Positions 2,303 through 43,141 of a DNA stretch of 64,000 nt are shown here, in pieces; positions within the stretch are counted from its first letter, which is position 1, and each line of letters opens with the position of its first letter. Position numbers and translations under genes: made by a program. Where the stretch lies: assembly GCA_947500005.1 (NCBI GenBank), contig CANMQJ010000001.1:1-64000 (forward strand), given 5' to 3'. This DNA comes from an uncultured Paracoccaceae bacterium. GTDB lineage: Bacteria; Pseudomonadota; Alphaproteobacteria; Rhodobacterales; Rhodobacteraceae. The notes under the pieces are model-generated. The model was given only the letters and a program-made list of their open reading frames with translations, made no database searches and was not told where the DNA came from.

Positions 2303-2563
2303 TGGTCATCCTCCCATGTCTCTTTCTGGCCCTATGCCACCCTAACGTAACAACGCCGCAACGACCCACAGCTTTCGCGTGTGTCAGGCGGGACTCTGCC
2401 GAACTGCCCCTCAGACGTGCGACCTCAAGTTGGCTTGATCAAAATCTTCGCATGATTTTCATGGAGACACTTTGTTGCATGTCAATTCGGGGCCAAGAGG
2501 CTTAGCCATTGCAACACATTCCTTAATTGCCATATGATATCCAAGAACCAAGCGGAGCGGAAC

Positions 2564-3427
2564 ATGAAACCCTTTGTCAAAGCCTTCTTCGACGAGGCGA
2601 CGAATACCGTGTCCTATGTCGTGCGCGAGCCCGAGGGCCGGGCCTGTGCGATCATTGACAGCGTACTCGACTTCGACCACGCGTCCGGACGGACGGATAC
2701 CCGCTCGGCGGATGCAATCATTGATTACGTCGAGTCCGAGGGCCTGACGGTCGAATGGATCCTGGAAAGCCATGTGCATGCGGATCACCTTTCTGCGGCG
2801 CCCTACATCCAGGAAAAGACCGGTGGAAAGATTGGCATCGGCCGCAACATCACCGTTGTTCAGGATACATTCGGCAAGGTCTTCAACGAGGGGACCGAGT
2901 TCCAGCGCGATGGCAGCCAGTTCGACCGTCTCTTCGAGGAGGGTGACAGCTTCCACGTGGGACAGATGCGCGGCGACGTCCTGCATACGCCCGGACACAC
3001 ACCCGCATGCCTGACATATGTCATCGGAGACGCGGCCTTTGTGGGCGACACGCTCTTCATGCCGGATTTCGGAACCGCGCGCTGCGACTTCCCGGGCGGC
3101 TCCTCCTCGACGCTCTACCAATCGATCCAGAAAATCCTGGCGCTTCCGGACGAGACACGGATATTCGTCGGCCACGACTACAAGGCGCCCGGCCGTGACG
3201 AGTATGCCTGGGAGACGACGGTGGGCGAGCAGAAGGCGCTCAACATCCATATCGGGCAGGGCAAGTCGATCGAGGACTTCGTTCAGATGCGCGATGCCCG
3301 TGACGCCACACTTGGAATGCCTCGGCTGATCCTGCCGTCGCTGCAGGTCAACATGCGGGCCGGCCAGATGCCGCCGCCGGACGACAAAGGTGACATCTTC
3401 CTGAAGCTTCCGGTCAACAAGTTATGA
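2564..3427 (+). CDS. MBL-fold persulfide dioxygenase (ETHE1/Blh-like)
   Basis: HVHADHLSAAPYI, HTPGHTPACLTYV, FVGDTLF and VGHDYK metal-binding motifs of ETHE1-type metallo-hydrolases. Confidence 0.9.
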   Translation: MKPFVKAFFDEATNTVSYVVREPEGRACAIIDSVLDFDHASGRTDTRSADAIIDYVESEGLTVEWILESHVHADHLSAAPYIQEKTGGKIGIGRNITVVQDTFGKVFNEGTEFQRDGSQFDRLFEEGDSFHVGQMRGDVLHTPGHTPACLTYVIGDAAFVGDTLFMPDFGTARCDFPGGSSSTLYQSIQKILALPDETRIFVGHDYKAPGRDEYAWETTVGEQKALNIHIGQGKSIEDFVQMRDARDATLGMPRLILPSLQVNMRAGQMPPPDDKGDIFLKLPVNKL

Positions 3428-3519
3428 CGAGAGGGACCGGCCCGATCCGGCCAGTCCAAATGCGATGCCCGGCCCGTTCGGGCGTCCCCTTTTCTGCGCA
3501 AAAATAGGAACGTGAAACG

Positions 3520-3948
3520 ATGGAAACGGACTGGATCTGGGGGCTGGTCGGCGGTCTCATGATCGGGCTTGGCGGGGCCGTCTATCTGCTGGGCAACGGG
3601 CGTATCATGGGAGCAAGCGGCATCCTTGGCGGGCTGGTTGATGGCTCGGGCTGGAGCACGGCCGGCGAACGGCTGTTGTTCATCCTTGGCGTAGTGGTGA
3701 CACCGCTGATCCTCTGGCCGCTCTACAATGCCGAGATCGACACCCATCTGACCAGCGACCTTTCTGTGGTAATCATCGCCGGGTTGCTGGTCGGGGTCGG
3801 CACGCGCATCGCCAATGGGTGCACTTCGGGCCACGGCGTCTGCGGGATGTCACGCTTTTCACTGCGCGGAATCGTCGCGACCGTCTTTTACATCCTCGCC
3901 GGTGGCCTGACCCTGGCGATCTTCCGTCACGTCCTGGGAGTAATCTGA
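3520..3948 (+). CDS. YeeE/YedE family sulfur transport protein (first half)
   Basis: GLVGGLMIGLGGAVYLLGNGRIMGASGILGG and NGCTSGHGVCGMSRFS motifs. Confidence 0.88.
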   Translation: METDWIWGLVGGLMIGLGGAVYLLGNGRIMGASGILGGLVDGSGWSTAGERLLFILGVVVTPLILWPLYNAEIDTHLTSDLSVVIIAGLLVGVGTRIANGCTSGHGVCGMSRFSLRGIVATVFYILAGGLTLAIFRHVLGVI

Positions 3949-33050: not shown

Positions 33051-33068
33051 CATTCGCATGTATGAATT
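33051..33068. promoter_or_regulatory. SoxR-like motif in the soxA-soxB intergenic region
   Basis: CATTCGCATGTATGAATT; CGCATGTATGAAT matches CGCATGTGTGAAT at 42632 at 12 of 13 positions. Confidence 0.5.
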
Positions 33069-36961: not shown

Positions 36962-36979
36962 AATTCACACATTCAAATT
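36962..36979. promoter_or_regulatory. SoxR-like operator, soxV-soxS intergenic
   Basis: AATTCACACATTCAAATT between the divergent soxV and soxS; shares ATGTGTGAATT (minus strand) with the other sites. Confidence 0.55.
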
Positions 36980-37528: not shown

Positions 37529-37876
37529 ATGGCATTGCCGCAGTTTTCGACCGACATGGCCGAGGAAGAGATCGACAAGATGGTGGACAATGCCACCCGC
37601 GCCTCGAACTTCCTGAAGGCAATCAGCCACGAAGGGCGACTGATGATCCTCTGCCACCTGGTGACCGGCGAAAAATCGGTGACCGAGCTCGAGGAACTGC
37701 TCTCGGCAAGACAGGCGGCGGTGTCCCAGCAGCTCTCCCGTCTGCGGCTCGAAGGCCTTGTCGTTCCCCGTCGCGAGGGCAAGGCGATCTACTATCGCCT
37801 TGCCGACGACCGCCCGCGACGGATGCTGGAAACCGTCTACGAGCTGTTCTGCAACGACGACGGCGCTGCGGCCTGA
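37529..37876 (+). CDS. soxR: SoxR, ArsR-family repressor
   Basis: ArsR winged helix (ASNFLKAISHEGRLMILCHLVTGEKSVTELEELLSARQAAVSQQLSRLRLEGLVVPRREGKAIYYRL); Cys42 and Cys108. Confidence 0.93.
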   Translation: MALPQFSTDMAEEEIDKMVDNATRASNFLKAISHEGRLMILCHLVTGEKSVTELEELLSARQAAVSQQLSRLRLEGLVVPRREGKAIYYRLADDRPRRMLETVYELFCNDDGAAA

Positions 37877-37954: not shown

Positions 37955-39013
37955 ATGAACCAGTACCTGAGCGACCATCAGATCGTCGCCGCAGTCGGCC
38001 TGTTCGGCGGCCTGCTGCTGGGCCTCGCGGCCCGGCTGGGACGGTTCTGTACCCTCGGCGCGATCGAGGATCTGCTCTATGGCGGCTCCAATCTGAGGAT
38101 GCGTATGTGGGCGCTGGCGATCGGCGCCGCGATCCTGGGCAGTTTCGGCCTCATGGCCCTTGGTCTGCTCGACCCCGGGCAAAGCTTCTACCTTTCGATC
38201 CGCTGGATGCCGCTGGCCTCGATCATCGGCGGGCTCCTGTTCGGCTATGGCATGGCGCTGTCGGGCAATTGCGGATACGGCGCCATCGCGCGGCTGGGAG
38301 GCGGCGACCTGCGCGCCTTCGTCATCGTGCTGGTCATGGGCGTCTTCACCTATGTCACGCTCAGCGGGCCTTTGGCGCCCATCCGGAACTTCTTCTTCAC
38401 GCAGGTCGAGGTCACGGGCGACGTCCCCCCCGGCCTGGCCCATCACGCTGCGGCGGTCAGCGGCCTGCCCGTACATGTCATCGGCCTCGCCATCGGTACG
38501 GTGATCTGTATCGGCGCGCTGGCCGGATCCACCCTTCGCCGGGATCGCAAGGCGATCTTCTGGTCCGTGGTCGTGGGCGCCGCCATCGTCTCCGGCTGGG
38601 CCGGTACGCAATGGGTGGCCCGCACAAGTTTCGAGGCGCTGCCCGTGGTGTCCCACAGCTTCTCGGCCCCGCTTGGCGAGACGATCCTGTGGACCATGAC
38701 CGGCAGCCTCCGACCGCTTTCCTTTGCCGTCGGATCGGTCGCCGGGGTCTGGGCTGGGGCCTTCATCGGCTCCTCGATCAAGGGTCATTTCCGATGGGAG
38801 GCCTGCGAGGATCCGCGCGAGCTGCGCCGCCAGATCCTCGGCGCTGCCATCATGGGCGTCGGGGCGGTTCTGGCGACGGGATGCACCGTAGGCCAAGGGC
38901 TTACGGCGTTCAGCCTTCTGTCGATCAGCGCGCCGGTAACCTTCCTCGCGATCTTCGCCGGCGCAGCCTTGGGGCTGCGCCAGTTGATCGAGGGGTTCAG
39001 CGCTGCTGAATAG
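37955..39013 (+). CDS. YeeE/YedE family transporter (SoxT-like)
   Basis: GLLLGLAARLGRFCTLGAIED ... GMALSGNCGYGAIARLGGGDLR ... GAVLATGCTVGQGLTAFS. Confidence 0.88.
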   Translation: MNQYLSDHQIVAAVGLFGGLLLGLAARLGRFCTLGAIEDLLYGGSNLRMRMWALAIGAAILGSFGLMALGLLDPGQSFYLSIRWMPLASIIGGLLFGYGMALSGNCGYGAIARLGGGDLRAFVIVLVMGVFTYVTLSGPLAPIRNFFFTQVEVTGDVPPGLAHHAAAVSGLPVHVIGLAIGTVICIGALAGSTLRRDRKAIFWSVVVGAAIVSGWAGTQWVARTSFEALPVVSHSFSAPLGETILWTMTGSLRPLSFAVGSVAGVWAGAFIGSSIKGHFRWEACEDPRELRRQILGAAIMGVGAVLATGCTVGQGLTAFSLLSISAPVTFLAIFAGAALGLRQLIEGFSAAE

Positions 39014-42131: not shown

Positions 42132-42566
42132 TCAAGGCCTTACATAGGCAAACCCCTGTTCCTGCAACTCGACCAGGCGGACGATGCCGGAGGGGACGAC
42201 GGTTGCCTCGTCCATCAGCTCGATCTCGTGCCCGGCCTTGGCGCTCATACCCTGGAGCGTGTTGCCGCAGGCGGCGAAGGAAAGCCCCTCGATCTCCATG
42301 CTCATCGCCACGATCCGGCTGGCCACAGGGCTGGTATCGGGGCGGAACATATGCAGGCCGGGGCCATAGGCCACCAGCTCGATCACGACGCTATCCCCTT
42401 GGGAATCATAGTAATTCTTGAGGTTCTGGACATTGTTCAGGGCCATGTTCATGACCTGCGGATCGTTCTGGTCGACATGGATGGCGACGTGGTGGCTTTG
42501 GCCTTCGGCAAGCGCCGTCGTGGCGGCGGACACCGCCAGAAAGGCGGCGGTCAGGATGGGTTTCAT
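42132..42566 (-). CDS. periplasmic DsrE-family protein
   Basis: Signal peptide MKPILTAAFLAVSAATTALA; DsrE-like VAIHVDQNDPQVMNMALNNVQNLKNYYDSQGDSVVIELVAYGPGLHM; conserved Cys in SFAACGNTLQGM. Confidence 0.85.
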   Translation of the reverse strand: MKPILTAAFLAVSAATTALAEGQSHHVAIHVDQNDPQVMNMALNNVQNLKNYYDSQGDSVVIELVAYGPGLHMFRPDTSPVASRIVAMSMEIEGLSFAACGNTLQGMSAKAGHEIELMDEATVVPSGIVRLVELQEQGFAYVRP

Positions 42567-42631
42567 GCGTGGTATCCTCCCTTTGGATAAAGGGAGGCTA
42601 AGGCATTTCCCGGGCTTCGTATAGAGGCGCG

Positions 42632-42650
42632 CGCATGTGTGAATGTGAGG
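42632..42650. promoter_or_regulatory. SoxR-like motif upstream of the dsrE-like gene
   Basis: CGCATGTGTGAATGTGAGG, 66 bp upstream of the ATG at 42566; matches the soxB-upstream motif at 12 of 13 positions. Confidence 0.45.
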
Positions 42651-42677: not shown

Positions 42678-42725
42678 TTGACCGTTTTGTACGCAGGTTT
42701 CGGGGGTGATTGACCGTTTTGTACA
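42678..42725. repeat. two direct copies of ATTGACCGTTTTGTAC (42678-42693 and 42710-42725), 32 bp apart
   Basis: Identical 16-mers directly upstream of the Phd/YefM-like gene; second copy extends to TTTTGTACAAGG, which contains TGTACA. Confidence 0.85.
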
Positions 42726-42739
42726 AGGGGGTACCGCAG

Positions 42740-43141
42740 ATGCGATGCTCGGTTTCCGAGGCCCGGACCATGCTGGGCCAACTCGTCACCCGCGCCCAGG
42801 ACCCGCGCGAGGTGATCGTCCTGACCCGCCATGGAGAGCCGCTGGCCGCCATCGTCTCGATCGCCGAGGCGGAGCGGATCTGGGACCTGTCGGATGATGG
42901 CGCGGTGGGGTGGCGGCACCCGCTGAGCGGGCTGCGCGGATGGTGGCGCAGGCGGTCGCCGGTGCCGGGGATGGAGCCGGGGCCGAACGGCAGCTATGTG
43001 ACCGCGCGGGAGGCGGCGATCCAGGTCCGCAAGATCCAGATGACCCGCGCCGAGGAACGCCGGATCCTGCAGGCGGGCGGGCTGGAGCCGGTGGAAGGCG
43101 GAGAGCTTGCGGCGAAGCGGCGGCGGTGGTGGCTGTGGTGA
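42740..43141 (+). CDS. Phd/YefM-family antitoxin-like protein with a basic C-terminal extension (no toxin found)
   Basis: MRCSVSEARTMLGQLVTRAQDPREVIVLTRHGEPLAAIVSIAEAERIWDL is Phd/YefM-like; start trimmed from 42710; AAGGGGG upstream. Confidence 0.75.
   Translation: MRCSVSEARTMLGQLVTRAQDPREVIVLTRHGEPLAAIVSIAEAERIWDLSDDGAVGWRHPLSGLRGWWRRRSPVPGMEPGPNGSYVTAREAAIQVRKIQMTRAEERRILQAGGLEPVEGGELAAKRRRWWLW

Follow-up and report, generated by a model that had tools for sequence, protein, structure and literature searches.

A predicted exported DsrE-fold protein as a candidate helper of the Sox system, with SoxR-type operators upstream of its gene in relatives

A gene of the DsrE family, orf2, was described between soxB and soxC of Sulfitobacter noctilucicola and S. 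undariae in a 2024 study, which also recorded DUF302 genes in sox clusters and left the function unassigned (PMC11034169). The dsrE-like gene analysed here belongs to the same family, and S. undariae was recovered in our comparison (locus L254) with the same placement, soxB-dsrE-soxC. However, the Sulfitobacter study gave the open reading frame only, without a regulatory site, stand-alone copies or co-occurrence, and in the window (the whole stretch of 64,000 nucleotides that was analysed) dsrE lies outside the sox cluster. The second relevant system is the SoxR/SqrR/BigR group of sulfane-sulfur repressors. SoxR of Hyphomicrobium denitrificans has two conserved cysteines, releases DNA upon formation of a sulfur bridge, and has targets outside sox (PMC10451225), and its relative SqrR recognizes ATTC-N8-GAAT (PMC9774250). 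The window likewise has an in-cluster SoxR with two conserved cysteines (Cys42 and Cys107, at places that, from the sequence, correspond to those of H. denitrificans SoxR) and three such operators at sox promoters. On the other hand, the dsrE site in the window keeps one half only, and an exported DsrE target is not described in PMC10451225 or PMC9774250. A search of the available literature found no paper that deals with exported DsrE proteins of Sox or with how they are regulated.

With respect to the protein, MTH1491 (1l1s) and ST0148 (2pd2) have the same fold, and MTH1491 also shares an aligned ACxNT cysteine motif and a C-terminal RP with the dsrE-like protein. Both are archaeal and their solved chains have no N-terminal extension, whereas the dsrE-like protein has a predicted signal peptide and a link to sox. 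To our knowledge, no activity has been demonstrated for DsrE-fold proteins of the MTH1491 branch. The DsrEFH/TusBCD and DsrE3C sulfurtransferases resemble the dsrE-like protein in fold and in a single reactive-type cysteine (2hy5 gave a weak structural match, E = 0.015), but these are cytoplasmic proteins of the Dsr or sHdr pathways, whereas the family considered here is predicted to be exported, occurs with Sox, and is only weakly related in sequence (Pfam DsrE below cut-off). New in the present analysis are the stand-alone dsrE genes and their operators, together with the footprint and the co-occurrence at genus level, whereas the placement between soxB and soxC was already known for the two Sulfitobacter species.

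The sox cluster of the window has the order fccBA-soxDCBAZYXWV / soxS-soxR-soxT, in which soxR adjoins soxS/soxV. The dsrE-like gene sits behind znuABC-zur, and its distance from soxR was measured as 4.7 kb, in agreement with the initial annotation, which had placed it behind a zinc uptake locus at 5 kb from soxR. The genes and coding features concerned are:

37529..37876, plus strand: soxR, an ArsR/SqrR/BigR-type repressor (Pfam HTH_5; NCBIfam BigR 1.4e-27, under that model's equivalog cut-off)
37955..39013, plus strand: soxT-like YeeE/YedE transporter (Pfam Sulf_transp 1.2e-60)
42132..42566, minus strand: dsrE-like gene (open reading frame) for a DsrE-fold (MTH1491-type) protein of 144 aa, predicted exported
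42267..42269, minus strand: codon of the invariant Cys100 (SFAACGNT), from the alignment of 97 orthologues
42507..42566, minus strand: codons of the predicted signal peptide (residues 1-20, MKPILTAAFLAVSAATTALA), from the sequence and the low pLDDT of residues 1-20

Elsewhere in the window, positions 2534-3948 appear to form a second sulfur locus, in which a Blh-type persulfide dioxygenase-like gene (its match covers the C-terminal part of the Blh model) precedes a YeeE-type transporter-like gene; the window PWM scan found no strong SoxR-type operator there.

The nearest solved structures by sequence were MTH1491 and ST0148, and PDB entry 1l1s matched the dsrE-like protein at E = 1.8e-12 by sequence and 1.3e-14 with a profile. 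The AlphaFold model (pLDDT 91) matched 1l1s in Foldseek at E = 2e-9 with a target-normalised TM of 0.90. The window protein scored 18.0 bits against the Pfam DsrE/DsrF-like family (PF02635), below the gathering score of 22.7 bits, and 17 of the 19 aligned members matched Pfam DsrE at E<=0.1 (best 1.4e-6). Cys100, which aligns with the Cys of MTH1491, was identical in all 97 aligned orthologues, as were T103 and also N48, G70, G127, L134 and P144, and N102 was identical in 96. The N-terminus has typical n/h/c regions (MKPILTAAFLAVSAATTALA/EG, TALA/EG), and aligned orthologues are similar in N-terminal character, judged by eye. The dsrE-like protein is thus modelled as a DsrE fold of the MTH1491 branch with a conserved Cys motif. 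Because of the fold match, the invariant Cys100 and the signal-peptide-like start, the family is a single-cysteine branch of the DsrE fold that is predicted to be exported, which is in line with the earlier description of an exported DsrE-fold protein with a conserved cysteine in SFAACGNT.

Orthologues were searched in one genome per genus of the family (397 genera, E<=1e-20; the source genus holds only the one genome) and were found in 98 genera. soxB was present in 252 of the 397 genera, namely in 95 of the 98 with dsrE vs. 157 of the 299 without (Fisher p = 1.5e-18, phylogeny uncorrected). The three dsrE genera that lack soxB (G071, G155 and G393) have orthologues among the more divergent (identity 48, 54 and 35%, respectively), and no operator was found upstream of dsrE in these three (scores -1.9, -4.2 and -5.0). 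In 17 of the 98 genera, dsrE is located within 200 bp after a sox gene of the same strand. The commonest arrangement is soxB-dsrE-soxC, and one subclade has dsrE behind soxCD together with a DUF302 gene; named strains with dsrE directly downstream of sox genes include Sulfitobacter undariae, Loktanella salsilacus and Pseudaestuariivita atlantica. The dsrE tree was poorly resolved, with 10 changes into or out of the operon, only 2 of which were forced by starred branches. DUF302 proteins recur beside dsrE, both in sox clusters (L085, L086 and L087) and in Aurantimonas (L284:4209-4817, minus strand), which suggests, at the level of gene neighborhood, that DsrE and DUF302 proteins form a pair in Sox. 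One genus retains soxB but has a dsrE orthologue broken by stops (G092:C35:80706-81145).

The co-occurrence with soxB and the placement in sox operons of 17 of the 98 genera support a Sox link of the dsrE family and its status as a Sox partner. The initial annotation had proposed a periplasmic sulfur-handling partner of Sox that synteny alone would miss. The partnership is backed by these data, while the sulfur handling would follow from fold and cysteine. The statement on synteny holds for this genome only, since the gene order of relatives shows the link directly and was published for two Sulfitobacter species (PMC11034169).

An operator model was built by an expectation-maximisation search of the soxV-S, soxW-X and soxA-B gaps from 40 further genomes and eight other loci, from which the window was excluded. 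The 81 sites yielded the palindrome AAATTCACATATGTGAATTT, i.e., ATTC-N8-GAAT, so that the model learned from sox gaps equals the published SqrR site. The top three PWM sites in the window were all located at sox promoters (next best, 14.2 bits), and the one upstream of soxX (35458) was missing from the earlier list of sites:

33052..33067, unstranded: full SoxR-type operator in the soxA-soxB gap, ATTCGCATGTATGAAT, 25.7 bits
35458..35473, unstranded: full SoxR-type operator upstream of soxX, ATTCACGAATGTGAAT, 25.7 bits
36963..36978, unstranded: near-complete SoxR-type operator in the soxV-soxS gap, ATTCACACATTCAAAT, 23.7 bits

The same model was applied to 79 stand-alone dsrE genes with enough upstream sequence, of which 36, 23 and 15 reached 8, 12 and 14 bits, respectively. 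Permuted-column models, which retain composition and sequence relatedness, gave means of 8.6, 2.6 and 1.2 and reached the observed counts in 0 of 1000 cases, and dinucleotide shuffles gave means of 7.3, 1.9 and 0.9. For a comparison with all upstream regions the Mann-Whitney p was 2e-10, but its controls included GC-rich operon interiors; it was therefore not relied on by itself, and the permuted-column and dinucleotide-shuffle controls were substituted. The matches cluster at -68 to -90 from the dsrE start codon, and roughly half of the stand-alone orthologues lack a clear operator. Antarcticimicrobium luteum and A. sediminis have the same lepA-dsrE-znu-soxT-soxR order as the window and carry better operator sites than the window does (ATATTCAAATATTCGTAACA at -80 and ATATTCAAATATTCATAAAA at -78; L222 and L251). 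Aurantimonas, which belongs to another taxonomic order, has a full operator of 26.5 bits between dsrE and a divergently oriented gene pair for an exported hydrolase and a DUF302 protein. The motif enrichment upstream of orthologous dsrE genes that had been proposed as a check was therefore found (23 of 79 at >=12 bits vs. 1.9-2.6 expected, position aligned) with a model that came from sox gaps of other genomes only, and this check does not refute the earlier interpretation. These results suggest that the family is very probably a Sox-linked gene under SoxR-type regulation.

In the window, CGCATGTGTGAAT was located at 42632-42644 (plus strand), and the distance from CGCATGTGTGAATGTG to the ATG of the minus-strand dsrE-like gene is 66 bp, as previously noted. 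The exact sequence CGCATGTRTGAAT has two copies in the 64-kb window, at 33055 in the soxA-soxB gap and at 42632, where shuffles predict 0.01, and ATGTGTGAAT is common to the dsrE site and the soxV-soxS gap (36963-36978). The reported near-identity to the former gap and shared sequence with the latter were thus reproduced. The motif is present as claimed for a SoxR-type operator, but the stretch that had been compared is one half of the longer palindrome ATTC-N8-GAAT. The features upstream of dsrE are:

42627..42646, minus strand: putative SoxR-type operator with one half intact, ACATTCACACATGCGCGCGC (ATTC-N8-GCGC), a 20-mer starting at -80
42618..42623, minus strand: TATACG block resembling a -10 element, conserved as TCTATNCGA among 14 aligned upstream regions and lying immediately downstream of where the operator falls

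No sigma-70 consensus promoter was found by a scan upstream of dsrE. A chance match of 13 bases upstream of an unrelated gene would agree with the observation that the motif is no commoner than in shuffles when mismatches are allowed (3 found vs. 2.5 expected in the window with 2 mismatches, not significant); similarly, ATTC-N8-GAAT with 1 mismatch showed no excess in the window (18 found vs. 18.8 expected). Counts with mismatches allowed were in general uninformative. A chance match is very improbable and already disfavoured, however, given the two exact copies vs. 0.01 expected, the conserved position of the site in relatives and the sox linkage of the orthologues. Furthermore, ATTCACACATGCGCAT with <=2 mismatches has only three matches in the 5.6 Mb genome (soxA-B, dsrE and C8:146153), and the dsrE site, with 2 mismatches, is one of them.

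On the minus strand the dsrE site reads ATTC-ACACATGC-GCGC, i.e., a good half ATTCACACATGC and GCGC as the other half. With the symmetric sox PWM it scored 4.1 bits (rank 30 in the window), which falls within ordinary upstream regions (control 75th percentile 1.4, 90th 5.0), compared with 23.7-25.7 bits at sox; the dsrE promoter of this genome has no full ATTC-N8-GAAT operator. When the sequences are aligned directly, the site coincides exactly with the CATTCACATATTCATAANNNTCTATNCGA of relatives, and the window keeps the first half and the TCTATACGA block, with GCGCGC in place of the second half (relatives ATTCACATATTCATAA, window ATTCACACATGCGCGC). The difference at this aligned position, together with the low score under the full operator model and a genome-specific repeated element only about 30 bp from the operator, would be accounted for if an ancestral full operator had its second half replaced by GCGCGC, so that dsrE escaped SoxR control here and is now constitutive or otherwise controlled. 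Such an escape is rather unlikely, although not negligible; the half that remains is unusually intact, with a centre, ACATGCGC, that agrees with the soxA-B operator subtype (majority sequence ACATTCAAACATGCGCATGT) at 14 of 16 positions. With a PWM of this subtype the dsrE site reached 14.6 bits and was the best non-sox site in the window, whereas the VS- and X-type models ranked it 176 and 222; the comparison was chosen after the dsrE site was known and only the AB subtype picks the site, so it is partly post hoc and supportive rather than decisive.

As the window site is a half-operator, SoxR control of dsrE in this genome is no more than plausible, and slightly favoured over its absence. With one operator half lost, SoxR would be expected to repress dsrE less than it does sox, or not at all. 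The earlier designation of dsrE as an outlying member of the sox regulon is accordingly upheld by the operators of its relatives and weakened by the half-operator of 4.1 bits in the window.

The repeated element consists of TTGACCGTTTTGTAC, present twice beside the dsrE operator (42678-42694 and 42710-42726, plus strand, 32 bp apart), with the second copy overlapping the start of a Phd/YefM-like ORF (42710-43141). The 17-mer TTGACCGTTTTGTACAA with 2 mismatches has 98 copies in this genome vs. 0 for a reversed-pattern control, most of them as 32-bp pairs in a variety of contexts, and 2.7 Mb of relatives' loci contain no copy of the core CCGTTTTGTAC. Sequences of this type are a genome-specific dispersed paired repeat.

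Strong sites were also found elsewhere in the genome. A SoxR-type operator of 22.2 bits (G000:C8:146153-146168, L051) precedes a soxH-like gene of the metallo-beta-lactamase fold that is distant from the sox cluster; this gene is 58% identical to one inside a relative's sox cluster, and it is likely another outlying sox-regulon member. Another site, ATATTCAAGTAGGCGAATAT (20.5 bits; G000:C2:67836-67851, L041), precedes a YgaP-like membrane gene, and a thioredoxin gene is close by. SoxR or an SqrR-like paralogue may act at this site; the 32-bp paired repeat is present there too. A second SoxR/SqrR-like ArsR repressor, 56% identical to SoxR, is encoded at G000:C1:400231-400536. It could read the same motif, which SqrR also recognizes (PMC9774250) and which a whole repressor subfamily reads, and the site before the YgaP-like gene is a further point for regulation of dsrE by an SqrR/BigR-like paralogue in response to sulfide or persulfide. 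Such a regulator in place of SoxR is nevertheless quite improbable, because dsrE tracks soxB (95 of 98 genera) and the operonic dsrE forms are under sox promoters.

Taken together, a DsrE-fold family that serves Sox, co-transcribed with sox or under its own SoxR-type operator, is probably the right explanation. Predicted exported single-cysteine DsrE-fold proteins would serve periplasmic Sox thiosulfate oxidation in Roseobacter-type bacteria, and in many relatives dsrE would be expressed together with sox, as part of the operon (soxB-dsrE-soxC) or from a promoter of its own, whose region a SoxR-type operator overlaps. Without sulfane sulfur, a SoxR dimer would occupy ATTC-N8-GAAT and repress transcription; sulfane sulfur would bridge the two cysteines of SoxR, SoxR would leave, and dsrE would be made along with sox. 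The operator data and the biochemistry of SoxR from Hyphomicrobium denitrificans make it most likely that dsrE is induced with sox in the presence of sulfane sulfur, and a response to thiosulfate would be expected.

The exported protein may hold periplasmic sulfane sulfur, as the fold and the invariant cysteine suggest, and would carry or relay it on Cys100; the order soxB-dsrE-soxC points to the SoxYZ-bound intermediate between SoxB and SoxCD as the most likely stage. This sulfur-carrier role is put forward tentatively, at somewhat less than even probability. The placement of dsrE exactly between soxB and soxC would suit, for example, a protein that assists the folding or stability of SoxB/SoxCD, or a SoxSVW-type redox helper, and the single cysteine and the nearest solved relatives without known activity also fit a Sox-linked role other than sulfur carriage. 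A role of that kind is rather doubtful, since the invariant cysteine of the AACxNT loop, by the MTH1491 alignment, takes the position of the reactive cysteine in DsrE-fold carriers.

These findings bear on the periplasmic handling of SoxYZ sulfane sulfur and on how the SoxR signal gets to the cytoplasm, which sulfane sulfur reaches by unknown means (PMC11582611). It is conceivable, though doubtful, that the exported DsrE-fold protein is an unrecognised working part of the Sox cycle, one that takes or passes on the sulfane sulfur of SoxYZ or offers it to SoxT for signalling to SoxR, and that its gene moves into and out of the sox operon yet stays under SoxR-type control. The dsrE-like gene is a candidate for an uncharacterised Sox helper, tied to Sox by neighborhood, co-occurrence and the conserved promoter sites of relatives. 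Genera that have this predicted exported DsrE-fold protein almost always have soxB too; its gene often stands between soxB and soxC, and elsewhere a SoxR-type operator often precedes it. The protein is a concrete candidate, testable by deletion and assay in culturable marine strains.
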